This document shows, piece by piece, positions 112 through 55,261 of a DNA stretch of 64,000 nt. Made by a program: the position numbers and the translations under genes. Location: contig CM075768.1 in assembly GCA_037974665.1 (NCBI GenBank), positions 3,994,501 through 4,058,500 on the forward strand, read 5' to 3'. Source of the stretch: Ehretia macrophylla (taxonomy: Eukaryota > Streptophyta > Magnoliopsida > Boraginales > Ehretiaceae). Position 1 is the stretch's first letter; each line of letters opens with the position of its first letter. Below the pieces are notes generated by a model, which saw nothing but the letters and a program-made list of their open reading frames with translations, was not told where the DNA came from and did no database searches.

Positions 112-2574
112 TGTGAAACCCCAGTTTTCGTCTTTACCTCGATTTGCGTGTCTTTGTCTCGATTTGTGTGATATGACCTCTTTATGTGTTATATGAATTA
201 GAATGCGCTAAATATGTTATTTATATTCCTATTACATACTATGTGTGCATTCATAAAATTTTCATAAAAAACGGAATCAAAAATTTTATCGACGGTTTTT
301 GTGAATAGTATTTTTGACGCACGTATGCTAAAATTTTTACACGGGTATTTTAAGTGTTTCAAAACCTAGCCCTCAGATATTAATAGACCTGTGTGTGATT
401 AAAATGGATTTCAAATCGACTTTGAAATTTTAAAGGTTTTTACACTTTCTTTTCTGAAAATTGAGTTTTTAACCCAGTCGGGTAAAAATGTTTGCATGTA
501 AAATTATTTGTTGTCTAAAATAAATTATCTAGAAATTATCTAAGTGTCAATTTAATGTTTTCAGCAAGAAATAGTCATAAATAGAATTAAAAGACTAGAA
601 ATACTAAAAAAATAAACTAGTGTTTACCTTTGACCTTGTTTTATTTTTGTTGACTTTGCTTACATATGCTAAATAACCAAAATTTCTCACAAAACAAAAG
701 CTCAAAACCCACTTTATTCTCACACACATGGCCGAAACATAGGAGGCCATTTTTGCTTGGTTTTGATCAATATTTTTCATTAGATTTTGCAATACAAAGC
801 CTTTACACTTGAATCAAAGTTTGTTCTTGCTTGTTGGGCATCCATTCTACACCTTTCTTGCATCAAAACACATCAAAGGTGAGAGAAAATTCTAGATCTC
901 AAAATGTCATTTTTATGTTAATTCATATAATCGAATTTTTAGTCGTTGAAATGTTAAATTGATGTTATATTATTGCTCAGTAGATGCTAAGGATTGATTA
1001 TACGTGTTTATATCAGTTTTGAACTGTTGTAGCATGAATTTTTATTTTCGGGTATTAAAATTGAGTTGTTGGCTATTTGTTGAATAATTGGAGTTGTGGT
1101 GGTTGGAATCTATTACAGTTAGCTTGTAAAAGTTTGTTAAATACGTGATTGTAATATTGTAATGTCGAAATTTTGATTGAGATGTCGGTGTGAAAGTCCA
1201 AAAGTTGCAGGCATGATGCATTAGGGTTTTGGGGTTGTTGGGTTTGATTTGGATGGATTATGGTTGGTTTCCTAAGGGGCTAATGTAGTGTGGTGATTGG
1301 ATTAGTAGAATGTAAGTTATGACTTTTAGAAGATTAGGTTGTCTTTCTTTAAAATCTTGAATTATGCCTTTGGATGTTTGGGTAGTGTTTGAGTGAATGA
1401 ATTGTGAGTTGTTGATGGTTAGACTAGGGTTTGGATGTGTGCTTATTGCATGTTAAGTTGGATGGCTTACTTTGTCATCTAACTTAGTTGTTGAGTTGTT
1501 AATTGTTTATTTGATGATATGTTGTTGAAATGATGATTATTGATCGATTATTGATGAACCGGGAGATAGGCAACTTACTTTGTTGTCTCCTGTGATAATT
1601 GATTATTGATGAGCCGGGAGATAGTCAACATGAAATGTTGTCCTCCTGAGATTTGAATGATTATTATTATTGTCATGAGTCTTGATATGTGTGTGCCACC
1701 TCTCGGGCAGCGTCGGGCTGTCGGGTTGAAAATGGCATGACTATCATAGGCTACCCCCAGCTTGCATGGGCAGAGGTGCCATGGAGGGAGGGGCTAGAGA
1801 GGTACCTCGGGTGCGTGAGTAATGGGGAGTTTATAAGAAGAACGGTTGAGATCCTGATGGCGTTTGGAGCTACACCAAGTAGAGTATCCTTTATTGATTG
1901 GTCATTATAATTAAAGTGCTTATATTGTTATTGATGATTATTATTATGTTTACTACTCAAGGGATGACTTCCAAGGAGTATAGTAAATACTATTAGAGAT
2001 CTATCGAATCCTCACTGAGCTTGTTTTATATAAGCTCACTCTCAATTATTGCATGCATACAGGTGTTACCGATCCAGATTACGGGTACGTGCCTCCAGAA
2101 GAGGATAATGTGCCATATATGGACGAGTCCTATGTGCCAGAGTCTTGTCCTTGATATCTGATGTTGTACTTTTTTGTTATCTTGTATATTAATACTAGTT
2201 GGTTTGTATTTACTTAGAAGTTATGATGTATAAGATGTTGTAAATATAATGGATTAAATGTTGCTAGTTTAGTAGTCTTGTTTTAGACAATGATTAGGCT
2301 ACTAGATTTGTTATAATCTATTTTGGGAAATGTATGTTATATAGTAAATGTATGATGTTGGAATGAAGGCGTATAACTTATGGATACAATGGTAAAAGAA
2401 TGTTTAATGTATATTGGGGTTGTGTTTTTTAATTGTTGAATTGTTTGTGGAGTTGGTTGTATGAGTTACGAAGAGGTTGGTTTAGAGCCTCGGTGTCCTA
2501 ATTATTGTCGTTATACTGCCGAAATTCTGTTGCGTCCTGATTAATTGTAAGAGGGGTCAAGTTGGGGCGTGACA
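112..2574 (+). repeat. 5' LTR of gypsy A
   Basis: Direct repeat of 6603-9098, running from TGTGAAACCCC to GGGGCGTGACA. Inside it are the family landmarks: a donor-like GTGAGAG at 879, a GC-rich module at about 1690-1889 beginning TGTGCCACCTCTCGGGCAG, a TATA-like TTTTATATAAG at 2024-2033, an acceptor-like TGCATGCATACAG ending at 2062, and the short frame 2063-2154. Apart from these the LTR is AT-rich and I see no gene in it. Confidence 0.92.
2063..2154 (+). other. Conserved short frame in A 5' LTR
   Basis: Directly after an acceptor-like CAG (2060-2062), codons in phase from 2065 read ...DPDYGYVPPEEDNVP... and end DESYVPESCP then TGA at 2152-2154. No ATG starts the frame, so it would need an upstream exon or start. 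Equivalent frames sit in B, H, E and the other A LTR. Known family: none that I recognise. A coding role is inferred from codon-wise conservation. Confidence 0.55.
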
Positions 2575-5500
2575 TTAAGTGTGATCAAAGCTAAGGTTTA
2601 ATTGTTAGCCGAGGTATTCTCGGAATGTGGGTAATGGTCTTAGCATGAAAGTATGTATGAAGTAAAAGAAAAGTGAAATGTGTGTCAAAATAATTAAGTG
2701 ATTAAGTGATTATGTGATTTAGTGATTTAGTGACTATGTGATTATGAGGTCAATTTGTTTATGTGATTGATACTTAAGTGATTTATGTGCTTTATGTGAC
2801 TTTGTTGTTTATGTGCTAATAATTGTCTATAGCCTGTCTATGTGCTGTAACCTGTGCTAACTCTTTGATTAGGTAGACCAAGAACCAGAGGTAGGCCTGA
2901 GGTAGTTGACGAGGCACCAGACAATGTGGCTCTGGGCCGAGATAGGGGTGATGACCGTATAGCTGCTGCCATGGATAGGATGACGGAGTTTATGGTAGGG
3001 CAGTCACAGTTATTAGCAGGGCAGGTAGCCTAGGCACAGGCATTACAAACTCAGTTGTTGAACATTCAGGGTGGTTACCACAGGCGTGGTACGTTGAAGG
3101 AATTCTTGGGTTATTATCCACTGAGATTTCAGGGAGAGCCAGATGATAGGAAGGCAGAAGCTTGGATTAATAAGATAGAGAAGATATTCGATCCTCTAGA
3201 CTACACGGATGAGAAAAAGTCAGTTATGCAGTTTATCTATTTGATGATGAGGCAGAGGAATGGTGGCGCACAGTGAGAGTCGGTTGGGAGGCAAGAGGTA
3301 CTCTGTGTGTTTGGGATACCTTTATTAGAGCGTTTCGGGTGAAATATGTCCCAAGGATTGCACGGGAACGGAGAGAGGTGGAGTTCCTGTCCTTGGTTCA
3401 GGGGGATGCTTCTGTGGCTCAGTATGAGGCCACTTATACTAGACGGTCCTGGTATGCACCGGAGTTTGGAGCAGATGAGGAGCGCAAGACCCGGAGGTTT
3501 ATGTTGGGTTTGATGTCAGAGATTCAGGATGCAATGACCTTGAATTAGTATGATATATTTTCTGAGGCTTTTGATCCGGCATCCAGACTGGAAAATAGGA
3601 AAGGGGAACATATTGTATCTAGTCAGCCTAGTAAGAGGCCATTTTAGCCGTAGGGCCAGCAGGTTGGGTATAGACCTTTAGTACAGCAGGGTAGTTATAG
3701 GCCTTCAGTGCAGCAGGGTTCTTTCAAACCGCAGGGTCAGCAGGTTTACTATCGGCCTCAGTTTCAGCAGGGGTCTTATTAGGCTCAGTCACAGTACAAC
3801 TCGGCCCAGTCTCAGGGTCAATATAGGCCTAGTGTTGTGAGACCCCAGCAATAGACTGGCACAGCCACTTATTCAGCTTTTGGTTTTCTAGGGGTAGTAG
3901 AAGTGCTTCGTCACCGCAGTATGCTTACTGCAAGCATCAGGGCCATATGGAGGCCGACTACAGGGCGAAGGCAGGAACGTGTTTGAGTTGCGGCAACAAT
4001 CAGCATAGGGTAAAGGATTGCCCTAGATTTCAGAGGACTGAGGGTTGGGTAGTGACCTAGGGTTATCAGGGATGACCTACCGATGGTGCACCTCAGCAGC
4101 AGCGGGTTTAGGCTCGAGCCTACGCAGTCAATTTAGAGAAGGCACCTGAGGATACGACAGTTGTGGAAGGTAACTTCCTTATACTCAATCAACTTGTTAA
4201 AGTGTTGATTGATTCTGGTGCTACGCATTCTTTCATACTACTTGTGTGCAACGTGTTAACATGCAACCTGAAAGATTGCCTTATGTGGTTGAGATTAGTA
4301 CTTCTTTAACTGATAAGTATGTGACAGGCTTAGTATGTAAATACTGTAAAATACATGTTAAGGGTCAAGATTTTCCATCGGACCTTATTTTATTTCCTAT
4401 CTGGGGGTATGATGTTATCTTGGATATGGACTAGTTTTCTAAGTTTGATGCTCAGCTAAACTGTAGAACAAAGGTAGTACGGTTTCATTTGCCAGATCAG
4501 CCAGTGGTTGAGGTAGCGGGGAACCGGGATGCTAAGACGAGTTTTATTATCTCATCAACTAAAGTTGTTAAGCTGGTGAGTAAGGGATGTTCGGGTGATC
4601 TAGCTTATTTGATCAACAAGCTATCGGACAAGCTAAAGCTGGAGGAAGTTCCTATTATTCGGGAATATCCCAATGTATTTCCCGAGGAGTTGCCAGGGTT
4701 ACCGCTAGAGAGAGATATGGAGTTTGTGATCAATCTTATTCCCGGTACTCAACCTATTTCTAAATCAACGTACCGGATGGCACCAGCTGAGTTGAAGGAG
4801 CTAAAAACACAGTTGCAGGAGTCATTAGAGAAGGGTTTCATTTAGCAGAGTTCTTCACCATGGGGAACACCTATTTTATTTGTGAAAAAGAAGGATGGTA
4901 TCTTGAGATTATGTATCGAATATCGTGGTTTGAATTAGGTGACCATCAAGAACAAGTATCCTTTACCACTGATTGACGAGTTGTTTGATCAACTTCAGGG
5001 AGCCAAAGTCTACTCTAAGTTTGACTTGAGACAGGAGTATTATCAGCTTCGGATTCGTACAGAGGATGTTCCGAAGTCTGTTTTCAGGACTCGGTACGGG
5101 CATTATGAATTTATTGTTATGCCCTTCGGACTGACTAATGCACAGGCAACATTCATGGATCTTATGCATCGGGTTTTTTAGCCGTACTTGGACCAGTTCA
5201 TGGTAATCTTTATTGATGATATCTTAGTTTATTCTTCTGTTTCGGAACAAGGTTTGTGTTCCCGATGAACCAGGTTTGAGGAGAGGTATTCTGGAAGAGG
5301 CTCATAATTCTAAGTACACCATTCATCCCGGTGGAAACAAGATGTATCGAAATTTGAAGCAATATTATTGGTGGAATAACATGAAGAGGGAGGTTGCTCA
5401 GTTTGTATCCAGATGTTTGACTTGTCAGAGAGTGAAAGCTGAACATCAACGACCTGCAGGGTTACTTCAGCCGTTGGCAATACCAAAGTGGAAATGGGAG

Positions 5501-6602: not shown

Positions 6603-9098
6603 TGTGAAACCCCAGTTTTCATATTCACCTCGATTTGCATGTCTTTGCCTCGATTTGTGTGATATGACCTGTTTATGCGTTATATGAATTAGAATGCGCT
6701 AAATATGTGATTTATATTCCTATTAAATGCTATGTGTGCATTCATGAAATTTTTATCAAAAATGAAATCATAAATTTTATCGACGGTTTTTGTGAATAGT
6801 ATTTTAGATGCACGTCCGCTAAAATTTTTACACGGGTGTTTTAAGTGTTTCAAAACCTAGTCCTCGGATATTAATAGACCTGTATGTGATTAAAATGGAT
6901 TTCAAATCGACTTTAAAATTTTAAAGATTTTTACACTTTCTTTTGCGAAAATCGAGTTTTTAACCGAGTCGGGTGAAAATATTTGCATGTAAAATTATTT
7001 GTCACCTAAAATAAATTATCTAGAAATAGTCTAAGTGTCAATTTAATGTTTTGAGCAAGAAACAGTCAAAAATAGAATTAAAAGACTAGAAATACTAAAA
7101 AAATAAACTAGTGTTCACCTTTGACCTTATTTTATTTTGTTGACTTTGCTTATATATGCTAAATAACCAAAATTGCTCACAAAACAAAAGCTCAAAACCC
7201 ACTCAATTCTCACACACATGGCCGAAACATAGGAGGCCATCTTTGCTTGGTTTTGATCAACATTTTTCATTAGATTTTGCAATAAAAAGCCTTTACACTT
7301 GAATCAAAGTTTGTTCTTGCTTGTTGGGCATCCATTCTACACCTTTCTTGCATCAAAACACAACAAAGGTGAGAGAAAATTCTAGATCTCAAAATGCCAT
7401 TTTTATGTTAATTCATATAATCGAATTTTTAGTCGTTGAAATGTTAAATTGATGTTATATTATTTCTCAGTAGATGCTAAGGATTGATTATATGTGTTTA
7501 TATCAGTTTTGAACCGTTGTAGCATGAATTTTTATTTTTCGGGTATTAAAATTGAGTTGTTGGCTATTTGTTGAATAATTGGAGTTGTGGTGGTTGGAAT
7601 CGATTGCTGTTAGCTTGTGAAAGTTTGTTAAATACATGGTAATAATATTGTAATGCCAAAATTTTGATTGAGATGTCGGTATGAAAGTCCAGAAATTTCA
7701 GCCATGATTCATTAGGGTTTTAGGGTTGTTGGGCTTGATTTGGATGGATTATGGTTGGTTTCCTCGGGGGCTAATGTAGTTAATTGAGTGGGTGAGTGAT
7801 AGAAACTGGTTTGGAGGTGATTGGATTAGTAGAATGTAAGTTATGACTTTTAGAAGATTGGGTTGTCTTTCTTTGAAATGTTGAATTATACCTTTGGATG
7901 TTTGGGTGGTGTTTGAGTGAATGAATTGTGAGTTGTTGATGGTTAGACTAGGGTTTGGATGTGTGGTTATTGCATGTTAAGTTAGATGGCCTACTTTGTC
8001 ATCTAACTTAGTTGTTGAGTTGTTAACTGTTTATTTGATGATATGTTGTTGAAATGATGATTACTGATTGATTATTGATGAACCGGGAGATAGGCAACCT
8101 ACTTTGTTGTCCTCTTGTGATAATTGATTATTGATGAGCCGAGAGATAGTCAACGTGAAAGGTTGTCCTCCTGAGATTTGAATGATTATTATTATTGTCA
8201 TGAGTCTTGATATATGTGTGCCACCTCTCGGGCAGCGTTGGGCTGTCGGGTTGAAAATGGCATGACTATCACAGTCTACCCCAAGCTCGCATGGGCAGAG
8301 GTGGCATAGAGGAAGGGGCTAGTGAGGTACCTCGGGTGCGTGAGTAATGGGGAGTTATAAGAAGAACGGTTGAGATCGTGATGGCGTTTGGAGCAACACC
8401 AACTAGAGTATCCTTTATTGATCGGTCATTATAATTAATGTGCTTATATTGTTATTGATGATTATTATTGTGTTTACTGCTCAATGGATGACTTCCAAGG
8501 AGTATAGTAAATACTGTTAGAGATCTATCGAATCCTCACTGGGCTTGTTTTATATAAGCTCATTCTCAATTATTGGATGCATACAGGTGTTACCGATCCA
8601 GATTACGGGTACGTGCCTCCAGAAGAGGATAATGTGCCATATATGGATGAGTCCTATATGCCAGAGTCTTGTCCTTGATATCTGATGTTGTACTCTTTTG
8701 TTATCTTGTATATTAATACTAGTTGGTTTGTATTTACTTAGAAGTTATGATATATAAGATGTTGTAAAGATAATGGATTAAATGTTGCTAGTTTAGTAGT
8801 CTTGTTTTAGAAAATGATTAGGCTACTAGATTGGTTATAATCTATTTTGAGAAATGTATGTTATATAGTAAATGTATGATGTTGGAACAGAGGCGTATAA
8901 CTTATGGATACAATGGTAAAAGAATGTTTAATGTATATTGTGGTTGTGTTGTTTAATTGTTGAATTGTTTGTGGAGTCGGTTGTATGAGTTGCGAAAAGG
9001 TTGGTTTAAAGTCTCGGTGTCCTAATTACTGTCGTTATACTACCGAAATTTCGTTGCGTCCTGATTGATTGTAGGAGGGGTCAAGTTGGAGCGTGACA
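6603..9098 (+). repeat. 3' LTR of gypsy A
   Basis: Second copy of the A LTR (TGTGAAACCCC ... GCGTGACA), 2496 bp. It differs from the 5' copy by scattered substitutions and small length differences. It carries the same landmarks: donor-like GTGAGAG at 7369, GC-rich module at about 8216-8416, acceptor-like CAG ending 8586, and the short frame 8587-8678. The right target-site duplication ATTAA follows at 9099-9103. Confidence 0.92.
8587..8678 (+). other. Conserved short frame in A 3' LTR
   Basis: Same frame and phase as 2063-2154, reading DYGYVPPEEDNVP and ending DESYMPESCP before TGA at 8676-8678. It remains open although the element's gag-pol is badly decayed. Confidence 0.5.
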
Positions 9099-17304: not shown

Positions 17305-19766
17305 GTGAGACCCCATATTTTGCTTTATCTCGATTTGGGTGTTTTACCTCGTTTTACGTGAGTTGACCTATTTATGTACTATATGACTTAGAATGTGATA
17401 ATTATATGATTAATACTCCTAATACATGCTAAGTGTGCATTCATGAAATTTTCATCAAAAACGGAATCAGAAATTTTATCGTCAGTTTTGGTGAATATTA
17501 TTTTTGAACACCTGTCCGCTAAAAATTTTACAGGGGTATTTTAATCATTTTAAAACCTAGTCCTCGAGTATTAATAGACCCGTGTTTGATTAAAACGGAT
17601 TTGGAAGCGGTTTTGGAATTTTAAAGATTTTTACACTTTCTTTTACAAGAAAATGAGTTTTAAGCCGATTCAAGTGAAACTATTTTAATGTAACCTTCTT
17701 TGTCACCTAAAATATAATGTCTAGAATTAATTTAAGTGTTAATTTAATAGTTGAGCAAGAAATACTCAAGAAATGAATTAAAAGACTAGAAAAATAATTA
17801 AAGGACTAAATAAACTAACATTGACCATTTTAATAAGTTTGACCTTTAGCTTATATGCATCAACACACACTAAACACAACACAAAACACACTCATCAACA
17901 CACACAAAGGGCCGAGAGTTTCAAGGGAGAAAAGAGAAAGAAATTTCAAAGGTTTTCAAAGCAATTTTTCATAGAAAAACCTAGTTTTTGTCCGTTGAAT
18001 TTCGTGCCGAGTTAGATTCCGCTTGTTGGGCACGCATTGCACCCATATCTAGGCTTATATCGCATCAAAGGTGAGAGAAAAATTCTAGATCTCAAAACTC
18101 ATTTTTTATGTTTTTGCTCATAACTGCATTTTGAACCATTAGAATGTTAATTTGAAGTTATATTATTGATCAGTGCATGCTAGGGATCGTTTATGTGTAT
18201 TACTACAAGATTTGAGCCATTGTAGCGAAATTATTTATTTTCGGGTATTTAAAGTTGATAGATTGGCAATTTGAGGATTATCTTGAGTTGTTGTGGTTGG
18301 AATCGATTGCCGTCAATTTCTAAAAGTTTGTTAATTATGTGGTAACGCCGTTATAATGCCCAATTTTCAATTGCGATGTTTGGGTGAAAATCCAAAAATT
18401 TCAGCCTAGGTGCATTGAGATTTTAGGGTTGTTGGGCTTGATTTTGATGTGTCTTGGTTGGTTTCCGAGAGGGCTAATGTAGTTGATTGAATGGGTGAGT
18501 GTTTGAAACTGATTTGGAGTTGTTTGGATTAGTAGAATGTAAGATATGATTATTTGAAGTTTAGGTTGTCTTTCTTTAAATTGTTGAATTGAGCCTTTAG
18601 ATGATTGGGTGGTGTTTGAGTGATTGAATTGTGAGTTGTTGATGGTTAGATTAGGGTTAGATTACGTGTTTAATGCATGTTAAGTTGGATGGCCTACTTT
18701 GTCATCTAACTTAGTTATTTGTTGTTTAATTGATTACTTAATGTTATATTGATGATTGATTATTGATGATTATTGATTGATGATTGATGAACCGGGAGAT
18801 AGGCAGTTCTGCTAGACTGTCTTCCTATGAATGATGTTTATTATTATTGTTGAGTCTTGGTATATGTGTGCCACCTCTTGGGCAGCGTCGGGCTGTCGGG
18901 TTGATAACGGCATGACTACCAGAGACTACCTCCAGCTCGCATGACGGAGGTGTCATGGAGGGAGAGGCTAGTGAGGTACCTCGGGTGCGTGAGTAATGGG
19001 GAGTTATAAGAAGAATGGTTGAGATCGTGATGGCGTATGGAGCTACACCAAATTGAGTATCCTTTATTGATTGGTCATTATAGTTATGTGTTTATATTGT
19101 ATTGATGTTTATTTGTGTGTTTACTTGCTCAAAGGATCATTTCCAAGGAGCATAGTAAATACTGTTAGAGATCTATCGGATCCTCGCTGAGCTTGTTTTA
19201 TATAAGCTCACTCTCTATTATTGCATGCATACAGGTGTCCTTGAGCAAGATTACGGGTACGTGCCTCCAAAAGAGGATAATGTGCTGTATGTGGACGAGT
19301 CCTATCTGCCAGAGTCTTGTCCTTGATGATTGAGATGTTGTATTCTCTATTATCTTGTATATTAAACTAGTTGTCTTTTATTTTTTCTCGTAATTTATGA
19401 TGTATAAGTTGTAGTAAAGATAATGAACTAAATGGTGCTAACTTAGTAGTCTTTCTTTTGTTATGATCTAGGTTGCTAAGTTGGTTTATAATCTATTTTG
19501 ATATGTATGTTAAAGCTAAGGTATTATGTTGGAACGGAGGCGTATAACTATGAATGGATCGTCTAAGAATGATTGTTGTATAATATGGTTATGTTGTATG
19601 TTGTTAATGGTATTGAGGAATTGATTGTCATCTGGTTGAGGAGTTTGATTGTGTGATGTTTTGAGAGGTTGGTTTAGAGCCTCGGTGTCTTAATTATTGT
19701 CGTTATACTGCCAAAATTCCGTTGCGTCCTGACTGACTGTAGGTGGGGTCGAGTTGGGGCGTGACA
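17305..19766 (+). repeat. Solo LTR B (A/E gypsy family)
   Basis: A single complete LTR (TGTGAGACCCC ... GGGGCGTGACA, 2462 bp) flanked by a perfect GTGTA duplication (17300-17304 and 19767-19771), with no internal region or second LTR. This is the usual outcome of recombination between the two LTRs of one element. It inserted in the reverse transcriptase region of G. Landmarks: TATA-like TTATATG near 17850, donor-like AAAG|GTGAGAG at 18071, GC-rich module about 18866-19062, acceptor-like CAG ending 19234, short frame 19235-19326. Confidence 0.93.
19235..19326 (+). other. Conserved short frame in solo LTR B
   Basis: After ATACAG the frame in phase from 19237 reads LEQDYGYVPPKEDNVLY and ends DESYLPESCP then TGA (19324-19326). 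Phase and length are the same as in A and H. Confidence 0.55.
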
Positions 19767-25038: not shown

Positions 25039-27533
25039 TGTGACGCCCGAGATTTAGCCATGCATTTAATTACTGTTGCATCCTTTGTTTGCGCATCTCT
25101 TTCTATGCCTTATTAACTGTCTTCTTAGGTTACTATTCACTCCATTTTTAAACTGCATTTTATTAGTTGATTAGCATTTTTATTAAATCATATTAATTAT
25201 TAAAGTAGTGAGAAAAATATGCAATTGAGCTAGAGGCGATAGGAGAGCTCGTTTAGAAAATGATTTTAGTAGTTGAATGAATAGTGTTACGTAACTAACT
25301 TAGAAATTTAATTAACTAGCGCATATGTTTCACTTTAGACTCGTTTTAAGCTTACTACGCGCATTATAATTGACCACTTGAACACCCAAACTTGACCCCA
25401 CCTCAAGGCCTACTTATTAAAACATGACACAAGCTCATTTTAGCACAAAAACACAACAATTTCAGCCTGTGAAGAGTGCCCAAACCCGACAGCCCTTCCC
25501 TTGTGCATTTGGAGATTTTGCTTCATCAAATCATCAATTCAAGCCAAAGCCAAGCCTTGAGCAACTAGTGTAGGGTGTTTGCAAGGTTCCTAGGTGCTCC
25601 TACGTGTATTGGTGAGGGATTTCATGGCTTATTTTTGCATTTCTAAATAGTTGTCAATTTCTTGATTTGTTGAAAATGTGATCAAATGCCATTGTATTAG
25701 TTATCTATTCTATTATACCATGTATATGAATGCTAGAGAACATATTTGAGCCATCGTTTCACAATTTAAACAGTTAGAATCGTTAGTTTGATTTTTAGGG
25801 TGAATAGTGACGTTTTTCTAGGGTTTTGCGTAATTGCTCGAATTAGCTTGATTCAATGCTTCTAATAGATGCCTTAAGTGCTAGTGAAGGTAACCTAATA
25901 GCCCCGTGCACTTGCATTGTCCTTAAATTGCCTAAAATGGAAAATAGCCGACTTTAATTTGGGGCTTTCGGGGTTAATGCGAATTCGGGTGGATTCGGGC
26001 TTCAATTATAGTATCCTTAGGTTACCTAGGTGCTATAGAAGCCTTGATATCCCTTGTTTGAAGCCCGGACAATGTATGTGTAGTTTAAAGCCATAAGAGG
26101 GAATTTGGGACTTTCGGGGTAATCGCGGGCATTTGAATGAGTTAGAGGGTTGAGAGGGTACCTTGAGGGTTAGTTAGAAGGTTGGGAGAGTTTCCTTTGA
26201 AAATGGAATCATTAACCTTGGTTTTGAAGAGAAATAGTTTGAAAACAAAGGGATTTATGAGCTATTTTGGTTGACTCACACTTCTAAACCCATGGTATAA
26301 CTTCTTGAATGTTTATATGTGGTTTCAAGTTGTTTTGAAGCTTTTGGTGTGATTCTATACTTAATTTGCATATGTCTCCTTGTAAAATTGCACATTTGCT
26401 TATATAATTGTTCTATTCTAATTGCATCAAGGTCAACCTACTTTGTTGATCCTCCTATGTGTTAATGCTTATATTATTGCTATTAACTTGCCATTGTTAA
26501 GTGTATTGCATAGTGGTTGCGCAACCATAGTGTCAGGGGCGGATGCGTTGAATATCGGCTGGGCGGCAGAGGGCTTGCCGGTGGATATTCAAACTCCGTG
26601 CCCTAGTCCCCCATTCGCTTGGTCCAGAGATTGCCAGGGGATGTTGGGTCGTAGGATTATCGGGGTACATCCGGAGTACACCCACTGGAGTGTTTGGGGA
26701 TTATGCCGGCTTATCGTGATCGTGCTCGTGGTTCGTGGTTCGTGAATGAAGATCAGTGAAGATTGGTGTATAGGGGATTGTGTGAAATGTATCCTTTTAA
26801 ATGTATGGTTACTTAAGTTATCATTGTTTCTTAAATTGTCTAAGTGATATTTTTGTATAACTGTATTATCTGTTGCATTGCACGCCCCGGGACTATATCC
26901 CTCACTGGGCAACAGTGGTTGCTCATACCTCGATATATGTTTCAGGAGACGCTGAGGGGGATCCCCAGCTTGTTGAGTTAGTTGAGGAGGAGGAAGTTCA
27001 GATTGACCCTTTACCTTAGTTGCTGTGCCTAATAGCTTGAGGTGGTTTAATTCCTTGCTGCTTTGTGGAAGGCTCAACTATTTATTTTATGTCCTATTTT
27101 GTAGCCTAAGGGCTATGTATATGCTTGTTGTATAAGTTGAAGACTAGTTGGTTGTGGTGTAGCTTTGAAAGCCTATGTACTGTAATAACTTATGATCTAC
27201 TTCTATTCGCTTTGCTTGCTTGGGAGTGAATGGCTTAAAATAGAAATGTTTGATCTTCCAATTATGTTTAATTGATTTCCTAGAATGTCATGATTATAAA
27301 ACTATGTTGATAATAAGTTCTCGCATGCTTGTGTGTTTTGGAACTATTGTGTACTATAAGGCTCGGATGTCCTTAGAACTTTGATGTCTAATTAAGAAAA
27401 GCTTGTATTGTATTGTTGGGACTTTGTTTGAGTGTTTACAGGTTTTTAGAATGTCCACGGTACAGGGGAGACTCTGTCCGTGTGTCGGGTCCAGACTTAA
27501 CCTTTAGCTTAGGGGTTGGGTCGGGGCGTAACA
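25039..27533 (+). repeat. 5' LTR of gypsy C
   Basis: Runs from TGTGACGCCCGAG to the LTR end just before the primer site. Landmarks: TTCCTAGG then 17 bases then donor-like GTGAGGGA at 25612, a GC-rich module about 26514-26735 opening with the 14-bp palindrome TGGTTGCGCAACCA (26514-26527), CCTCACTGGGC near 26902, acceptor-like TTTCAG ending 26945, and the short frame 26946-27019. No other gene seen. Confidence 0.93.
26946..27019 (+). other. Acidic short frame in C 5' LTR
   Basis: After GTTTCAG, codons in phase from 26948 read DAEGDPQLVELVEEEEVQID and end PLP then TAG (27017-27019). There are two leftover bases after the acceptor, as in the A/E family. The 3' LTR copy (34478-34551) and both D copies keep the frame. 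Confidence 0.5.
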
Positions 27534-30500
27534 TTTAAGTGGTATCAGAGCTATAGATTGCATGAAGCCGGGTTAAATTTCTCGGTCTGTGGGTAGAGAT
27601 TTGTTATGTGACTTTGTGAATACATGAGTCTTTGATTTTGATTGGCCTAAGTGAAATTTGAATAAGGAATGAATATGCTAACATGGAAATAGAATATCAA
27701 GAGTCTAGAATGTCAAATATGATCTAGTGTACTTCAAGAATGTGGAATGTTTATTTGAACTTCTATGTACTTGACTTTATGTGAATCTAATTGGACTTTT
27801 CTTTATGTGCTTACTTATAAATTGCATATATACATATATATACCTGTCATAACACTTTGCATTCTAGCTATTCGAGATGGGGCCCCGCCGTCGTGATGAT
27901 AATCCGAATGTTGGTGGAAAACCCGAGGGGGTTCATGGGCAAGAAGCTGAGGTGGCCGAAAATGCACCGCAGGTTCAAGAACCGAGCACTGCACAGATCT
28001 TGGCCACGATGGCCACTGCTATGAACACTATCGCCCAGTTTGTTACACAACAGGGTCAGCCAGGGGTCGTTGGAGGTAATCAGGCTGCGAGAGCCGGAGG
28101 TAGTGGTCCTACCGGAGGGAATCTGTATGATCGGTTTATACATCATGGGGCCTATACTTTCTTTGGGGAGCCGGACGATATGAAAGCTGAGATGTGGCTA
28201 AGGAAGTTTGAGAGAGTGGCAGCAATACTCGAGTGCCATGATGACAGGAAGATTACTTATGCTACTTTCCTTCTCGAGGGTGATGCTGAAGATTGGTGGA
28301 ATACCATCAGTGAGAAATGGGGAGTTGAGGGAGTTCATCATTCATGGGCTGACTTTGTCTGAGAATTTCGAGACAAGTATATATCGGTAGTTGCCCGCGA
28401 GAGGCGTCAAACAGAGTTCATAAACTTGAAGCAGGGAAGTATGACGGTAGATCAATACGAGGCTACTTTTACCCGACTTTCCCATTATGTACCAGCTTTG
28501 ATTCAGCCGGAGGACATGAAGATTCAGAGGTTCATCCTGGGTTTGAGGAGGGATATTATGCTGAACTTGTCTTCAAATGATTTTCCCAACTATGCTGCAG
28601 TAGTCCGAGCTGCCTCGAGGTATGAGAAACAGAAGGCCGATGTGTTAACCGAGACCAGTCAATCGAGTAAACGGTTTCAGTCTCAGAGTCAATGGTACCA
28701 GGGGCAGGCTGTATCAGTTGGGCAGAGTTCACAGCCGAGGCAGACTCAGAGTTATACAGGGCCTACTCAGACTCAGTCACGACCAGTTCAGAGTCAGTCT
28801 CAGAGTCAGCTCTGTCCAGCAGTTTCCCGTTCGCAGCAGGGTAGTTCAGCTACCTCTACTTACAGAGCTCCTTCGGGAGGCACTGTTGCAAGACGTCACC
28901 AGCAGTGCAGCTTCTGTCAGTGCCAGGGCCACACTGAGGATGTTTGTTGGAAGAAACATAACAAGTGTACAGGTTGCGGCAGTGATCAGCACAGGGTTAA
29001 AGACTGTCAGAAATTTAAGAACCCTAGGGGTTAGACAGCAGCTCAGAACTCTCAGACCAGGGCACCAGCTGCAGCACCACCACCACGAGGTCAGGCCCGT
29101 GTATTTGCTTTGGATGTTGAGAAGCTTCCGGATACTACCGCTGTGGTAGAAGGTATTTTTCTTCTTAATGATCAATCAGTTAAGGTTTTAATTGATTCCG
29201 AGGCTTCACATTCTTTTATTACTCCTACTTGTGCATAAAATGCTAAATTGAAACATGATAAACTGTTGCATGAGATTGTGGTTTATACTCCTATGGGTCC
29301 GAAGTTTGTTACTAGATCTATTTGCAGAGCATGTAGTATATTTATTGAGGGTCGTGTTTTTCCTGCTGATTTGATTATCCTACCCTTCAATGACTTTGAA
29401 ATTATATTGGGGATGGACTGGTTAAGTAAATATTATGCCCAGCTTGATTGTAGAAAGAAGATTGTGTATCTAGAAATGCCTGACCAGCCTATACTTAAAA
29501 TAGTTGGTAGTAGAAAATCTACGGGAACTCCTATTATTTCTTCTATTAGGGCATCTAAATTATTGAACAAGGGTTGTGAGGCTTATCTTGCATATTTGAT
29601 TAATCAACCTGGGGATCAATTGAAATTGAATGATGTACCTATCGTGAGGGAGTTTTCGGGGGTCTTTCCTGAGGAATTACCTGGGTTACCGCCTGATAGA
29701 GAGATAGAGTTCATGATTGATTTATTGCCGGGGACTTCACCTATCTCTAGGACTCCGTATAGAATGGCTCCACCTGAATTGCAGGAATTGAAAGTTCAAT
29801 TGCAGGGCTTGCTTGAGAAGGGATTCATTCAACCGAGTTCTTCACCGTGGGGCGCGCCAGTTCTATTCGTTAAAAAGAAAGACAGATCTCTTCGCCTATG
29901 CATTGATTATCGAGGTCTTAATCAGGTAACCATCAAAAATAAATATCCTTTGCCTTTAATCGAAGAGTTGTTTGATCAGTTGCAAGGTGCCAGGGTATTC
30001 TCTCAATTCGATCTGAGGCAAGGCTATTATCAGCTGAGGATTAAGAAAGATGATGTTCCTAAAACTGCTTTCAGAACTCGATATGGCCATTATGAGTTTG
30101 TTGTCTTGCCGTTTGGTCTTACTAATGCTCCCGCCGCATTCATGGACTTAATGCAGAGGGTATTCCGTCCTTATCTAGACCAATTTGTGGTCATATTCAT
30201 TGATGATATCCTTGTCTATTCTAAATCTGAGGCGGAACATGAACAGCATCTCAGAATTGTGTTGCAGACTCTTCAGGAGCATCAGTTATTTGCAAAGTTT
30301 AGCAAATGTGAATTCTGGCTTAAGCAAGTTGCTTTTCTTGGCCATATTATCTCGCAGGATGGTATTTCTGTTGATCCAGCGAAGATTGAAGTGGTGTTAT
30401 CTTGGAAACGACCTGAAACTGTTACAGAAATTCGTAGCTTCCTTGGTTTAGCTGGGTATTATCGGAGGTTTGTCAAGGATTTCTCTAAGATTGCAGGGCC

Positions 30501-32571: not shown

Positions 32572-35065
32572 TGTGACGCCCGAGATTTAGCCATGCATTT
32601 AATTACTGTTGCATCCTTTGTTTGCACATCTCTTTCTATGCCTTATTAACTGTCTTCTTAGGTTACTATTCACTCCATTTTTAAACTGCATTTTATTAGT
32701 TGATTAACATTTTTATTAAATCATATTAATTATTAAAGTAGTGAGAAAAATATGCAATTGAGCTAGAGGCGATAGGAGAGCTCGTTTAGAAAATGATTTT
32801 AGTAGTTGAATGAATAGTGTTACGTAACTAACTTAGAAATTTAATTAACTAGCGCATATGTTTCACTTTAGACTCGTTTTAAGCTTACTACGCGCATTAT
32901 AATTGACCACTTGAACACCCAAACTTGACCCCACCTCAAGGCTTACTTATTAAAACATGACACAAGCTCATTTTAGCACAAAAACACAACAATTTCAGCC
33001 TGTGAACAGTGCCCAAACCCGACAGCCCTTCCCTTGTGCATTTGGAGATTTTGCTTCATCAAATCATCAATTCAAGCCAAGCCAAGCCTTGAGCAACTAG
33101 TGTAGGGTGTTTGCAAGGTTCCTAGGTGCTCCTACGCGTATTGGTGAGGGATTTCACGGCTTATTTTTGCATTTCTAAATAGTTGTCAATTTCTTGATTT
33201 GTTGAAAATGTGATCAAATGCCATTGTATTAGTTATCTATGCTATTATACCATGTATATGAATGCTAGAGAACATATTTGAGCCATCGTTTCACAATTTA
33301 AACGGTTAGAATCGTTAGTTTGATTTTTAGGGTGAATAGTGACGTTTTTCTAGGGTTTTACGTAATTGCTCGAATTAGCTTGATTCAATGCTTCTAATAC
33401 ATGCCTTAAGTGCTACTGAAGGTAACCTAATAGCCCCTTGCACTTGCATTGTCCTTAAATCCCCTAAAATGGAAAATAGCCGACTTTAATTTGGGGCTTT
33501 CAGGGATAATGCGAATCCAGGTGGATTCGGGCTTCAATTCTAGTATCCTTAGGTTACGTAGGTGCTATAGAAGCCTTGATATCCCTTGTTTGAAGCCCGG
33601 ACAATGTATGTGTAGTTTAAAGCCATAAGAGGGAATTTGGGGCTTTCGGGGTAATCGCGGGCATTTGAATGAGTTAGAGGGTTGAGAGGGGACCTTGAGG
33701 GTTAGTTAGAAGGTTGGGAGAGTTTTATTTGAAAATGGAATCATTAACCTTGGTTTGGAAGAGAAATAGTTTGAAAACAAAGGGATTTATGAGCTATTTC
33801 GGTTGAATCACACTTCTAAACCCATGGTATAACTTCTTGAGTGTTTATATGTGGTTTCAAGTTGTTTTGAAGCTTTTGGTGTGATTCTATACTTAATTTG
33901 CATATGTCTCCTTGTAAAATTGCATATTTGCTTATATAATTGTTCTATTCTAGTTGCATCGAGGTCAACCTACTTTGTTGATCCTCCTATGTGTTAATGC
34001 TTATATTATTGCTATTAACTTGCCATTGTTAAGTGCATTGCATAGTGGTTGCGCAACCATAGTGTCAGGGGCGGATGTGTTGAATATCGGTTGGGTGGCA
34101 GAGGGCTTGCCGGTGGATATTCAATCTTCGTGCCCTAGTCCCTCATTCGCCTGGTCCGGAGATTGCCAGGGGATGTTGGGTCGTAGGATTATCGGGGTAC
34201 ATCCGGAGTACACCCACTGGAGTGTTTGGGGATTATGCCGGCTTATCGTGATCGTGCTCATGGTTCGTGGTTCGTGAATGAAGACCAGTGAAGATTGGTG
34301 TATAGGGGATTGTGTGAAATGTATCCTTTTAAATGTGTGGTTACTTAAGTTATCATTGTTTCTTAAATTGTCTAAGTGATATTGTTGTATAACTGTATTA
34401 TCTGTTGTATTGCACGCCCCGGGACTATATCCCTCACTGGGCAATAGTGGTTGCTCATACCTCGATATATGTTTCAGGAGACGCTGAGGGGGATCCCCAG
34501 CTTGTTGAGTTAGTTGAGGATGAGGAAGTTCAGATTGACCCTTTACCTTAGTTGTTGTGCCTGATAGCTTGAGGTGGTTTAATTCCTTGCTGCTTTGTGG
34601 AGGGCTCAACTGTTTATTTTATGTCCTATTTTGTAGCCTAAGGGCTATGTATATGCTTGTTGTATAAGTTGAAGACTAGTTGGTTGTGGTGTAACTTTGA
34701 AAGCCTATGTACTGTAATAACTTATGATCTACTTCTATTCGCTTTGCTTGCTTGGGAGTGAATGGCTTAAAGTAGAAATGTTTGATCTTCCAATTATGTT
34801 TAATTGATTTCCTAGAATATCATGATTATAAAACTATGTTGATAATAAGTTCTCGCATGCTTGTGTGTTTTGGAACTATTGTGTACTATAAGGCTCGGAT
34901 GGCCTTAGAACTTTGATGTCTAATTAAGAAAAGCTTGTATTGTATTGTTGGGACTTTGTTTGAGTGTTTACAGGCTTTTAGAATGTCCACGGTACAGGGG
35001 AGACTCTGTCCGTGTGTCGGGTCCAGACTTAACCTTTAGCTTGGGGGTTGGGTCGGGGCGTGACA
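32572..35065 (+). repeat. 3' LTR of gypsy C
   Basis: Second C LTR (TGTGACGCCC ... GGGGCGTGACA), 2494 bp. It has the same landmarks: donor-like GTGAGGG at 33144, palindrome TGGTTGCGCAACCA at 34046-34059, acceptor-like TTTCAG ending 34477, short frame 34478-34551. CCTCG follows at 35066. Confidence 0.94.
34478..34551 (+). other. Acidic short frame in C 3' LTR
   Basis: Same frame as 26946-27019, reading GDPQLVELVEDEEVQIDPLP before TAG. One conservative Glu-to-Asp change is visible and the frame stays open. Confidence 0.5.
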
Positions 35066-43576: not shown

Positions 43577-44950
43577 CATCAACACACAATCAAAACAACA
43601 CAAAACACACTCACATACACACACAAGAGGTTGAAACTCCATAGGCAACTTTGGGAGGTTTTTCAACATATTTTCTAAACAATTTTGTCTTAGAAAACTC
43701 ATTTTTTGGCCAAAGCTTTTCAAACCGAGTTAGATTTCGCTTGTTGGGCACCTATTGCACGCATTCCTAGTCTTATTTCGGATCAAAGGTGAGAGAAAAA
43801 TTCTAGATCTTAAAATGCTATTTTATGTCATTTTCATATAATTGAATTTTTATCTAATGAAATGTTAAACTGTTGTTAGATTATTGCTCAGTAGTTGCCA
43901 AGGATCATTTACATGCGTTTTTATAGGTTTTGAACTGTAGTAGCATGTATTTTTATTTTTCAGTATTAAAATTGGATTTTGAGTTCATTGTTGAATAATT
44001 GTTGTTGTAGTGGTTGGAATTGGTTGGTTGTTACTTCTAAAAGTTTGTTAATTATGGGTAGTAATGTTGTAATGCCGAATTTTTGATTTGGATGTCGTGG
44101 TGAAAGTCCAGAAAATTCAGCCTTAGTGCATTACGAAATTAGGGTTGTCGGGCTTGTTTTAGATGGGTTATGGTTAGTTTCTGAGGGGGCTAATGTAGAT
44201 ACATAAGTAGGTGGGTGATAGGAAGTGGTTTGGTGGTTATTGGATTAGTAGATTGTAAGTTATGATTGTTGGAATTTTGTGTAGTCTTTCTTTAAATGTT
44301 GAAATATTGTCTTTGGTTGTTTGGGTGGTGTTTGAGTGGTTGAATCTTGGGTTGTTTTTGGTTAGATTCGGGATTGGTTGTATGGTTTGATGAATGTTAA
44401 GTTAGGTTGCCTACTTTATCATCTAACTTAGTTGTTAGTTGTTTATTTGATTAATTGATGTTATGTTATTGAAATGATGTTAATTGATTGATTATTGATG
44501 ATGTCGGGAGATAGGCAACCTACTTTTGTTGTTCTCCTATAATATGAATGTTTATTATTATTGTCATGAGTCTTGATAGTGTGTGCCACCTCTCGGGCAG
44601 CATTGGACTGTCGAGTTGATAACGGCATGACTATCATAGACTACCCCCAACTCGCATGGGCGGAGATGCCATGGAGGAAGGGGCTAGATGAGGTACCTCG
44701 GGTATGTGTACTGGGGAGTTATAAGAAGATGGTTGAGATCATGATGGCGTATGGAGCTACACCAACTAGAGTATCCTTTCTCAAATGAATGGTTATTTAT
44801 GTGAATGAATTGTTAATGTTGAATAAGTTATTTGAATGTATTGCTTATGTGGTGGTTTACGAGTATAAGTAAATGTTTTCACCAGATCTATCGAATTCCT
44901 CACTGGGCTTGTTTTATATAAGATCACTCTCATTCATTTTCTGCAATCAG

Positions 44951-45042
44951 GTATTACTGAACTAGGCTTTGAGTATGTTCCTCAGGAAGCTGAGTATATG
45001 CTTTTTGTGGAGGAGTCTTATGTGCCGGAGTCATATCCATGA
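44951..45042 (+). other. Conserved short frame in solo LTR H
   Basis: After CAATCAG, codons in phase from 44953 read ITELGFEYVPQEAEYMLFVE and end ESYVPESYP then TGA (45040-45042). Many codons differ from A and E at the third base only (TCT/TCC/TCA Ser, CCG/CCA/CCC Pro). Confidence 0.55.
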
Positions 45043-45691: not shown

Positions 45692-48178
45692 TGTCACGCC
45701 CCGACCCAACCCCCAAGCTAAAGGTTAAGTCCGGACCCGACACACGGACAGAGTCTCCCCTGTACCGTGGACATTCTAAAAACCTGTAAACACTTAAACA
45801 AGGTCCCAATAACACATACAAGCTTTTCTTAATTATACAATAAAGCTATAGGGCCATCCGAGCCTTATAGTACACAAAATCTCCAAAACACACAAGCATG
45901 CGAGAATTGGTTGCCGGCATAGTCTTATAATCATAACATTCTAGGAAATCAATAAAACAACTTAAGGGATGAAGCATTCTACATCAACCATCCACTCCCA
46001 AGCATGCAAGGAAATAAGGCGAGAAATAAAAGTTATTACAATTCATAGACTTTCAAAGCCATAACCCAACCAACTAATCTTCAACTTATACAACAAGCAT
46101 ATACATAGCCCTTGGGCTACAAAATAGTACATAAAGTAATCAGATGAGTCTTCCACATAACAACAAAATCATTAACCACCTCAAGTTATCAGACACAGCA
46201 ACTAAGGTAAAGGCTCGATCTGAACTTCTTCTTCCTCAACTAAATCAACAAGCTGGGGATCACCCTCAGCGTCTCCTGAAACAGATATCGAGGTATGAGC
46301 AACCACTGTTGCCCAGTGAGGGATATAGTCCCGGGGCGTGCAATGCAACAGATAATACAATTACACAACAATAACACTTTAACAATTTAAGAAACAATGA
46401 TAACTTAAATAACCACACAATTAAAAGGATACATTTCAACAATCCCCTATACACCAATCTTCACTGGTCTTCAATCACGATCCACGAACCACGAGCACGA
46501 TCACGATAAGCCGGCATAACCCCAATCACTCCAGTGGGTGTACTCCGGATGTACCCCGAATCCTACGACCCAACATCCCCTGGCAATCTCCGGACCAGGC
46601 GAATGAGGGAATAGGGCACGGAGTTTGAATATCCACCGGCAAGCCCTCTGCCGCCCAGCCGATATTCAACACATCCGCCCCGACACTATGGTTGCGCAAC
46701 CACTATGCAATGCACTCAACGATGGCAAGTTAATAACAATAATATAAGCATTAACACATATGAGGATCAACAAAGTAGGTTGACCTCGTTGCAATTAGGA
46801 TAGAAGCAAAGATAGAAGCTAATAAGCAGTTTACAAATGAACTTATACCATATAAGCATAGAATCATTCCAAAAGCTCCAAATCAATTTAAAATCATATA
46901 TAAACACTTAAGAAGTCCTGACATGGGTTTAGAAGTGTGAGACAACTTAAATTGCACCTAAACCCCTTTGTTTTTCGAACTATTTCTCTTCTAAACCAAA
47001 GTTAATGATTTCATTTTCAAAGGAAACTCTCCCAACCTTCTAACTAACCCCCAAGGTACCCTCTCAACCCTCGAACTCAATCAAATGCCCGCGTTTACCC
47101 CGAAAGCCCCAATTTCCCTCTTTTGGCTTTAAACCACACCTACATTGTCCGAGTTTCAAATAAGGGATATCAAGGCATCTATAGCACCTAGGTAGCCTAA
47201 GGATACTAGAATTGAAGCCCGAATCCACCCGGATTCGCATTAACCCCGAAAGCCCCAACTTAAAGTCGGCTATTTTCCATTTTTAGGCGATTTAAGGGCA
47301 ATGCAAGTGTACGGGGCTATTTAATTATCTTCACTAGTACCTAAGGCATCAATTAGAAGCATTAATTCAAGCCAATTCGAGCAATTACACAAAACCCTAG
47401 AAAAAACGTCATTATTCACCCTAAAAATCAAACTAACGATTCTAACCGTTTAAATTGCGAAACGACGGTTCAAAAGTGTTCTCTAGCATTCATATAGATA
47501 GTATATTAGCATAGATAACAATTATAATGGCATATAATCATATTTCCAACAAATCAATAAATGAGCAACTATTTAAAAATGCAAAAACAAGTCGTGAAAT
47601 CCCTCACCACTACGCGTAGGAGCACCTAGGAACCTTGCAAACACCCTACACTAGTTGCTCAAGGCTTGGCTTGGCTTGAATTGAAGAGTTGAAGATGGAA
47701 AAATGCTCCCAAGTGCAAGGAGGGGCTGTCGGGTTTGGGGCTGCTGTTTCAGCTTTTTATTTTTTTTTTCTTTTGCATTTTGTGAGTTTAAGTGATATAA
47801 TAAGGGGTTGAGTTGAGGTGGGGTCAATTTGGTGCTTAAGTGATCTAATAAAATGTGCGTAGTAAGCTTTAAAACGAGCTTAGATGGTAAAATATATGCT
47901 AGCTAATTAATTACCTAAGTTAGTTACGTAACACTATTCACTTGACTTCTAAAATTATTTTCTAAACGAGCCCTCCTAACGCCTTTAGCTCAAATGCGCA
48001 TTTTTTCCACTACTTTTACAATTAATATGATTTAATAAAAATGCTAATTAATTAATAGAAGACAGTTTAGAAATGGAATGAATAGTAACCCAAGAAGGCA
48101 GTCAATAATGCACAGAAGGAAATGCGTAAACAAAGATGCAACAGTAATTAAATGCATGGCTAATTCTCGGGCGTCACA
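45692..48178 (-). repeat. 3' LTR of gypsy D
   Basis: Plus-strand ends TGTCACGCCCCGACCC and GGGCGTCACA. On the minus strand: donor-like GTGAGGG at 47607, palindrome TGGTTGCGCAACCA at 46689-46702 within a GC-rich module (about 46490-46702), acceptor-like TTTCAG ending at 46276, short frame 46275-46202. No other gene seen. Confidence 0.93.
46202..46275 (-). other. Acidic short frame in D 3' LTR
   Basis: Reads DAEGDPQLVDLVEEEEVQIE, then PLP and TAG. Against C, several changes are synonymous (GGG/GGT, GAG/GAA twice, ATT/ATC) and two are Glu/Asp exchanges. Confidence 0.5.
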
Positions 48179-53227: not shown

Positions 53228-55261
53228 TGTCACGCCCCGACCCAACCCCCAAGCTAAAGGTTAAGTCCGGACCCGACACACGGACAGAGTCTCCCCTGTA
53301 CCGTGGACATTCTAAAAACCTGTAAACGCTTAAACAAGGTCCCAATAACACATACAAGCTTTTCTTAATTATACAATAAAGCTATAGGGCCATCCGAGCC
53401 TTATAGTACACAATATCTCCAAAACACACAAGCATGCGAGAACTGGTTGTCGGCATAGTCTTATAATCATAACATTCTAGGAAATCAATAAAACAACTTA
53501 AGGGATGAAGCATTCTACATCAACCATCCACTCCCAAGCATGCAAGGAAATAAGGCGAGAAATAAAAGTTATTACAGTTCATAGACTTTCAAAGCCATAA
53601 CCCAACCAACTAATCTTCAACTTATACAACAAGCATATAATAGCCCTTGGGCTACAAAATAGTACATAAAGTAATCAGATGAGTCTTCCACATAACAGCA
53701 AAATCATTAACCACCTCAAGTTATCAGACACAGCAACTAAGGTAAAGGCTCGATCTGAACTTCTTCTTCCTCAACTAAATTAACAAGCTGGGGATCACCC
53801 TCAGCGTCTCCTGAAACAGATATCGAGGTATGAGCAACCACTGTTGCCCAGTGAGGGATATAGTCCCGGGGCGTGCAATGCAACAGATAATACAATTACA
53901 CAACAATAACACTTTAACAATTTAAGAAACAATGATAACTTAAATAACCACACAATTAAAAGGATACATTTCAACAATCCCCTATACACCAATCTTCACT
54001 GGTCTTCAATCACGATCCACGAACCACGAGCACGATCACGATAAGCCGGCATAACCCCAATCACTCCAGTGGGTGTACTCCGGATGTACCCCGAATCCTA
54101 CGACCCAACATCCCCTGGCAATCTCCGGACCAGGCGAATGAGGGAATAGGGCACGGAGTTTGAATATCCACCGGCAAGCCCTCTGCCGCCCAGCCGATAT
54201 TCAACACATCCGCCCTGACACTATGGTTGCGCAACCACTATGCAATGCACTCAACGATGGCAAGTTAATAACAATAATATAAGCATTAACACATATGAGG
54301 ATCAACAAAGTAGGTTGACCTCGTTGCAATTAGGATAGAAGCAAAGATAGAAGCTAATAAGCAGTTTACAAATGAACTTATACCATATAAGCATAGAATC
54401 ATTCCAAAAGCTCCAAATCAATTTAAAATCATATATAAACACTTAAGAAGTCCTGACATGGGTTTAGAAGTGTGAGACAACTTAAATTGCACCTAAACCC
54501 CTTTGTTTTTCGAACTATTTCTCTTCTAAACCAAAGTTAATGATTTCATTTTCAAAGGAAACTCTCCCAACCTTCTAACTAACCCCCAAGGTACCCTCTC
54601 AACCCTCGAACTCAATCAAATGCCCGCGTTTACCCCGAAAGCCCCAATTTCCCTCTTTTGGCTTTAAACCACACCTACATTGTCCGGGCTTCAAACAAGG
54701 GATATCAAGGCATCTATAGCACCTAGGTAGCCTAAGGATACTAGAATTGAAGCCCGAATCCACCCGGATTCGCATTAACCCCGAAAGCCCCAACTTAAAG
54801 TCGGCTATTTTCCATTTTTAGGCGATTTAAGGGCAATGCAAGTGTACGGGGCTATTTAATTATCTTCACTAGTACCTAAGGCATCAATTAGAAGCATTAA
54901 TTCAAGCCAATTCGAGCAATTACACAAAACCCTAGAAAAAACGTCACTATTCACCCTAAAAATCAAACTAACGATTCTAACCGTTTAAATTGCGAAACGA
55001 CGGTTCAAAAGTGTTCTCTAGCATTCATATAGATAGTATATTAGCATAGATAACAATTATAATCGCATATAATCATATTTCCAACAAATCAATAAATGAG
55101 CAACTATTTAAAAATGCAAAAACAAGTCGTGAAATCCCTCACCACTACGCGTAGGAGCACCTAGGAACCTTGCAAACACTCTACACTAGTTGCTCAAGGC
55201 TTGGCTTGGCTTGAATTGAAGAGTTGAAGATGGAAAAATGCTCCCAAGTGCAAGGAGGGGC
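53228..55261 (-). repeat. 5' LTR of gypsy D, partial
   Basis: Matches 45692-47731 almost base for base. It is interrupted by E just after AAGGAGGGGC; the uninterrupted 3' copy continues with TGTCGGGTTTGGGGC from 47727. Landmarks: short frame 53810-53737, palindrome TGGTTGCGCAACCA at 54224-54237, donor-like GTGAGGG at 55142. Confidence 0.93.
53737..53810 (-). other. Acidic short frame in D 5' LTR
   Basis: Same as 46202-46275 with one residue changed (LVNLVEEEE), still open to TAG. Confidence 0.5.

Follow-up and report, generated by a model that had tools for sequence, protein, structure and literature searches.

An intron followed by a constrained coding exon inside the LTRs of gypsy chromoviruses in Ehretia macrophylla, with gag as its candidate partner

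Judged from genomic sequence, the LTRs of Tekay-like gypsy chromoviruses in Ehretia macrophylla hold a real GT-AG intron and, behind it, a coding exon (exon 2) whose frame is clearly under purifying selection. The partner of exon 2 is most likely the element's own gag, in preference to an unrecognised accessory gene, and we lean slightly towards a spliced Gag-only protein with an acidic tail, formed via a donor at the Gag/protease border and the LTR acceptor. In the proposed mechanism, the first 70-100 bases of exon 2 would encode a strongly acidic C-terminal tail with a conserved stop codon, and exon 2 of the 3' LTR would probably act as the last exon of a subgenomic mRNA made by splicing. 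Splicing from the border donor to the LTR acceptor would take out protease, reverse transcriptase, integrase and the polypurine tract, and the product would be Gag plus the acidic tail. The unspliced RNA would serve as Gag-Pol mRNA and genome, and the presumed function is an excess of Gag over Pol. Retroviral p6 has a position comparable to that of the proposed tail.

An intron and a coding exon within the LTR

The window, the whole 64,000-nt stretch of DNA that was analysed, sits in a 1.58-Gb genome assembled as 20 contigs and is densely filled with Tekay-like gypsy chromovirus elements; the Tekay clade label for these chromodomain elements is provisional and based on sequence motifs. Domains were checked in element H alone, where Retrotrans_gag, zinc knuckle, RVP_2 and SH3_Tf2-1 all scored above the Pfam cut-off and Chromo scored below it (19.9 vs 25.1 bits). 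Gag, protease and an integrase C-terminus with chromodomain (from the H domains), together with flanking LTRs (from the LTR pairs), place the elements among the Ty3/gypsy chromoviruses. The gag-pol of H is a single open frame of 1628 codons; its pol ends ~100 nt inside the LTR, almost 2 kb short of the coding exon.

The preliminary description of the window had pointed to a short frame after an acceptor-like CAG in five LTR copies. All five were recovered inside LTRs of ~2.5 kb. Each follows a CAG, is open in one shared phase, with its first full codon starting at the third base, and ends in TGA:

2063..2154, plus strand, LTR exon 2 coding part and stop, 5' LTR of element A; the phase 1 frame behind the CAG is open as far as TGA and under selection
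8587..8678, plus strand, LTR exon 2 coding part and stop, 3' LTR of A
19235..19326, plus strand, LTR exon 2 coding part and stop, LTR E
44951..45042, plus strand, LTR exon 2 coding part and stop, LTR F
57206..57306, plus strand, LTR exon 2 coding part and stop, 5' LTR of H; carries a nine-base in-frame insertion

The first two had been taken for separate subfamilies and turn out to belong to a single element, in its 5' LTR (110-2579) and its 3' LTR (6601-9104), which are 93% identical. The 3' LTR of H is truncated by the window edge, so the second H copy of the frame lies outside the window.

Upstream of the CAG by ~1.2 kb, the A-type LTRs have a conserved donor, AAG/GTGAGA (the slash marks the splice site), and this pair of sites delimits the following introns, to which those of a second LTR family (elements C and G) correspond:

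879..2062, plus strand, LTR intron in the 5' LTR of A; 1184 nt, GTGAGA ... CAG; relatives lack exactly that stretch
7369..8586, plus strand, LTR intron in the 3' LTR of A
18071..19234, plus strand, LTR intron in LTR E
43789..44950, plus strand, LTR intron in LTR F; its close relative L021 has no intron
56028..57205, plus strand, LTR intron in the 5' LTR of H
63465..64000, plus strand, first part of the LTR intron in the 3' LTR of H, truncated at the window edge
25612..26945, plus strand, LTR intron in the 5' LTR of C; 1334 nt; relatives L073-L075 lack it

Genome searches with the joined sequence yielded nine intron-less LTR copies at six places, missing exactly the ~1.2-1.3 kb from donor to CAG. 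Three pairs (A/F-type, C-type and A/H-type) make up six of them; two singles were found alongside the A/F-type pair and one alongside the C-type pair, and the search that gave the A/H-type pair recovered one of the earlier singles again. The absence of the intron is backed by flanking alignment in eight of the nine, the ninth being known from its search row alone. At locus L021 precisely the donor-to-acceptor stretch is missing. The intron-less C-type pair represents both LTRs of one element, 98.6% identical, with gag on one side and pol on the other. Such copies are rare against more than 10,000 stem-loop matches (see below). Because they look like reverse-transcribed spliced RNA, the CAG, previously called acceptor-like, can be regarded as a genuine, functional acceptor and the intron as removed in vivo. 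The same copies indicate that the transcript begins before exon 1, within the LTR.

The LTRs of C and G have little in common with the A-type along most of their length (no match of at least 300 nt), yet they follow the same plan: a GTGAG donor and an intron of ~1.33 kb with a stem-loop and TTTCAG at its end, then two bases and a run of 23 acidic codons closed by a stop. Their exons are as follows:

26946..27019, plus strand, second-family exon 2, 5' LTR of C; 23 acidic codons and TAG
34478..34551, plus strand, second-family exon 2, 3' LTR of C
46202..46275, minus strand, second-family exon 2, 3' LTR of G
53737..53810, minus strand, second-family exon 2, 5' LTR of G

An internal stop occurs in one of 13 C-type exons, which are too alike for a rate test. 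Further versions of the acidic tail, in the same layout, are present at L041 and L045, which have no pol beside the LTR. The tail has been lost from the Y-type LTRs L011, L012 and L039, and no acidic exon was found in the LTR of the minus-strand element at 14.6-17.3 kb, although this LTR does have a donor-like GTGAGA where one is expected. In a further LTR family, near 14084 (minus strand), AG/GTGAGA stands ~535 nt into the LTR, the expected place of the exon 1 donor.

Genome-wide, the general polypurine-tract pattern of these lineages gave 23,991 matches and the stem-loop that precedes the acceptor gave 10,924. Matching ends with no pol seen in the 800 nt before the LTR were observed at L009-L013, L020, L021, L024, L026, L027, L040, L041 and L045-L047, and such pol-less elements may make up the majority of the polypurine-tract matches. 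Two second-family elements in the window, 27826-32618 and 48132-52924, lie in opposite orientation 15.5 kb apart and are 96% complementary across 4.8 kb.

Selection on the exon 2 frame

The frame was compared among 52 copies. Those chosen by the polypurine-tract end (17) or by the stem-loop 5' of the acceptor (20) all come from one contig. The remaining 15 comprise the five copies in the window, six hits of a similarity search whose query includes the exon, three from the junction search and one chance find in L095. Exons were located by a loose match to their start, which may favour copies with a conserved start. This gave 53 exons, reduced to 52 by removal of L070 as a duplicate of L021; L017 was left out, its polypurine tract not being found. 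The exon was present in 17 of 19 A-type LTRs picked by the polypurine tract (L018 had lost it and L019 gave no match), and the exon-match search was negative in L009, L010, L013, L026, L027, L031, L040, L046 and L047.

On a tree of the 52 copies, the changes inferred at codon positions 1, 2 and 3 number 59, 67 and 125, a spread greater than expected by chance (binomial p 5e-8; column permutation p 1.5e-4). The preliminary description had proposed a codon alignment with dN/dS set against the flanks. In the 3' flank of the 52 copies the changes show no third-position bias (176/191/165 by column). Pooled dN/dS was 0.20 over 14 subfamily representatives hand-picked from the 52, with pN below pS in 91 of their 91 pairs, which are not independent of one another. 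By half, the ratio in these representatives was 0.30 in the first and 0.12 in the second, which holds the DESYVPES residues. As a frame control, the 11 representatives with 29 codons gave 0.21 in the proper frame and 2.33 and 0.73 in the shifted frames. Alleles found in at least three copies are distributed 10/17/35 across codon positions and singleton alleles 15/10/12. The third-position bias of shared alleles, absent from singletons, is the pattern left when selection acts on active lineages and copies evolve neutrally once inserted.

Length changes tell the same story as the substitutions. In a raw-DNA alignment, made with no codon assumption, the exon has a single gap type, of 9 nt, and the stop positions of all 52 copies share one column; the next 101 columns contain 24 gap types, of which 22 would shift a reading frame. 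An earlier gap count had used a protein-guided alignment, which is blind to frame-breaking gaps, and the raw-DNA count agreed with it. The nine-base change had been noted before as the sole length change in the exon and as in-frame, which holds; it had been placed in E and belongs to the copy at 57206. With the third-position excess, the dN/dS of 0.20 and this in-frame-only gap, the earlier suggestion of translated sequence under selection is borne out.

The frame is intact in 44 of the 52 copies and 50 end in a stop codon; among the 20 copies picked by the stem-loop, the figures are 15 and 20. A ratio near 1 or frequent stops had been named beforehand as signs against a coding frame. The ratio is 0.20; in-frame stops do occur, in eight of 52 copies, and two of 52 lack the final stop codon, as expected of dead copies. 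The 44 intact tails carry a net charge of -5 to -9, and tails such as those of A and H contain neither Lys nor Arg. Three versions of the tail matched no Pfam family above the cut-off, and the one version searched against PDB had no match; within this narrow sample, capture of a host gene finds no support. With 23-32 codons, no conserved ATG and a place inside the LTR rather than in the gap between pol and LTR, the frame differs from an independent env-like ORF.

A conserved stem-loop in the adjoining region speaks for conservation of an RNA or DNA element with no protein product. This reading is scarcely credible, given the third-position spectrum, the in-frame-only length change, the kept stop and the low dN/dS, and given that another acidic peptide occupies the same place in the plan of the second LTR family.

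Candidate partners of exon 2

No ATG is conserved in the exon 2 frame, and in several subfamilies stops close exon 1 in the exon 2 phase; in H its last full codon is TAA. On both counts a C-terminal exon, one of the two readings offered by the preliminary description, fits better than an LTR-encoded peptide. Because exon 1 is closed, the coding partner is probably inside the element, translation of the frame in the 5' LTR is improbable, and selection probably acts on the 3' LTR copy, used as a downstream exon. Exons 1 and 2 might instead form a short 5'-leader ORF with a non-AUG start, since the intron-less copies show that the two are spliced together and the final exon 1 codons are open in the exon 2 phase in A, E, F and C. 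We regard this as very improbable: besides the TAA of H there are stops in other copies, no in-frame ATG lies directly upstream, and H-type exon 2 is intact in most H-type copies regardless.

A donor scan of the elements, which used approximate plant donor frequencies, found a few donors conserved between A/H and C/G. The one proposed here as partner lies at the Gag/protease border, with a phase 1 intron:

59276..59285, plus strand, proposed partner donor in H at the Gag/protease border; GAAG/GTAACT, putative intron from 59280, phase 1
4166..4175, plus strand, proposed partner donor in A; GAA G/GT AAC, putative intron from 4170, phase 1
29149..29158, plus strand, proposed partner donor in C; GAAG/GTATTT, putative intron from 29153, phase 1
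51592..51601, minus strand, proposed partner donor in G; GAA G/GT ATT, putative intron from 51597, phase 1

GAAG/GT was present in all 14 copies that yielded the region; 20 had been sampled, and the other six gave no match to it. In H the zinc knuckle is upstream of this donor. By extrapolation, two Pfam protease models would begin at the junction glycine; the RVP_2 model begins 21 residues before the junction, so that the border is somewhat blurred. Across 12 A/H-type rows there are 94 variable sites in 301 nt, and the least variable 27-nt segment (two sites) contains the donor. Between H and G, 16 of the 22 conserved codons just downstream of the donor are identical, against 408 of 909 overall, a synonymous signal matched by 1.3% of segments before allowing for the several sites tried. 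Synonymous constraint beside the Gag/protease donor is in our view suggestive only. Joined to exon 2, the donor gives glycine whether the exon begins with GT (A-type) or GA (C-type). As G/GT and G/GA both encode glycine, the difference between the families is silent only with a donor that ends in G.

The LTR exon could also be the C-terminal exon of Pol, following integrase and chromodomain, with splicing from a donor at the end of pol, GTAAGAATT, just before the polypurine tract, to the acceptor of the 3' LTR:

62658..62662, plus strand, rival donor GTAAG at the end of pol in H

A donor-like GTAAG was likewise observed at 6562-6566, at the end of pol. In the A/H-type and C-type copies compared, pol ends with GTAAGAATT, which pol-less families do not have; it is in phase 1 in H, C and G, and the A/H join gives serine. 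This reading is nonetheless distinctly unlikely. The join in family C produces an immediate TGA, although the C tail keeps its acidic frame, and the conservation of GTAAG is not specific to splicing, as it encodes residues there too. The one genome search for a junction copy found only two ordinary intron-bearing acceptors. Since the pol-end donor gives serine in H and a stop codon in C, a Gag-only mRNA is favoured.

That exon 2 ends a small accessory protein, with its first coding exon elsewhere (at another donor in gag or pol, or in a short exon with an ATG), is unlikely as well. H and C/G have several further phase-1 donors in common, for example near the RNase H/integrase border, and one of those conserved in pol scores higher than the Gag/protease donor. 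Against an accessory protein, no extra coding region was recognised, and the gag-pol of H is one open frame.

Besides these other conserved phase-1 donors, two observations bear against gag as the partner. L020, L021 and L024 keep the frame and have no pol in the 800 nt before the 3' LTR, and no copy of a gag-to-exon-2 junction was found in the genome at the sensitivity used. The second is weak counter-evidence, because such an RNA would be without a polypurine tract. If the Gag reading is true, the splice that adds the tail deletes the polypurine tract, and the Gag mRNA would therefore never be a replication template.

How plant gypsy elements with a single gag-pol frame make far more Gag than Pol is a standing question, to which a coding LTR exon would be a directly testable answer. 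We put at roughly even chances the wider proposition that an abundant plant retrotransposon lineage makes its Gag via a 3' LTR exon, the LTR then combining promoter, intron, coding exon and terminator in at least two LTR families of mostly unrelated sequence. Splicing could in this way separate RNA for translation from RNA for replication, and LTRs, usually masked as non-coding, can contain exons under selection.

Related systems and sequences around the splice sites

Gag-only RNA made by splicing is described for Ty1/copia elements in the available text of three papers (PMC8892269, PMC7730604, PMC3735527). As far as the accessible portions of the literature go, Arabidopsis EVADE with its shGAG, Drosophila copia and barley BARE1 resemble the proposed scheme in having one gag-pol frame and a spliced subgenomic Gag RNA. 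They are copia elements, whereas the elements here are gypsy chromoviruses in which the acceptor and the coding end would lie in the 3' LTR. In the same portions, BARE1 has a 104-nt intron near the end of gag, with a stop three residues later, and splicing of EVADE is coupled to early poly(A).

CRM group A chromoviruses likewise have a 3' LTR that contains protein-coding sequence; in them, according to the part of the report available, the polyprotein frame continues into the LTR (PMC3059260); here the pol of H stops and the exon sits behind an intron. H does not show the CRM group A combination of a polyprotein frame running on through the 3' LTR and a targeting motif. Splicing in plant gypsy elements is reported, in accessible excerpts, for Ogre, CRR and Bagy2, and for Diaspora donors are predicted in the LTR and acceptors at the start of gag; these excerpts describe, for all four, neither an intron with both ends in the LTR nor a coding LTR exon. 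The 2005 Diaspora paper states, in its available text, that an intron upstream of gag had not previously been reported (PMC1142308). A 2025 review, in the portion available, calls plant LTR elements generally intron-less, with Ogre and EVADE as exceptions (PMC12786077), and the accessible text of another paper lists CRR and Bagy2 too as spliced (PMC3735527). In a 2024 sunflower paper on active elements, Tekay included, 'splic' and 'intron' are absent from the main text. In the open-licence literature we recognised no LTR-internal intron with a coding LTR exon for plant gypsy elements, which is not proof of absence. Further afield, the CERV protein of Cer1 in C. elegans, as presented in the available part of its description, is an extra protein of a gypsy-type element made from a spliced mRNA that shares Gag sequence; CERV is a multi-exon RNA-export protein, whereas the extra part here is a tail of 23-32 residues (PMC10309623).

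The stem-loop used in the searches lies just 5' of the acceptor:

2016..2038, plus strand, stem-loop just 5' of the acceptor; includes TTTTATATAAG

It folds in five of six sequences from different families and is weaker in the sixth. It stands between a CTCAC/CTCGC motif and the acceptor, likewise in other LTRs. For the inner pairs, A-type LTRs have TT/AA, whereas the C-type, L041 and L045 have AA/TT. TTTTATATAAG was considered as a TATA box or promoter, and this was dropped: the spliced copies place the transcription start before exon 1, and TTTTATATAAG forms part of the stem-loop. It is more likely a part of the acceptor region.

An acceptor-like TTTGATTAG or TTTGCATTCTAG stands directly 5' of the gag ATG at ~57990 in H and 27880 in C, and exon 1 might also be spliced straight to gag. 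At 62663-62680 in H, an inverted repeat lies right before the polypurine tract, with a counterpart in the matching place before the 3' LTR at other loci. Its arms co-vary between families (AATTTCG-AGGA-CGAAATT vs AATTGCG-TGGA-CGCAATT), in pol-less families too, and the repeat appears to behave as a kept hairpin would.
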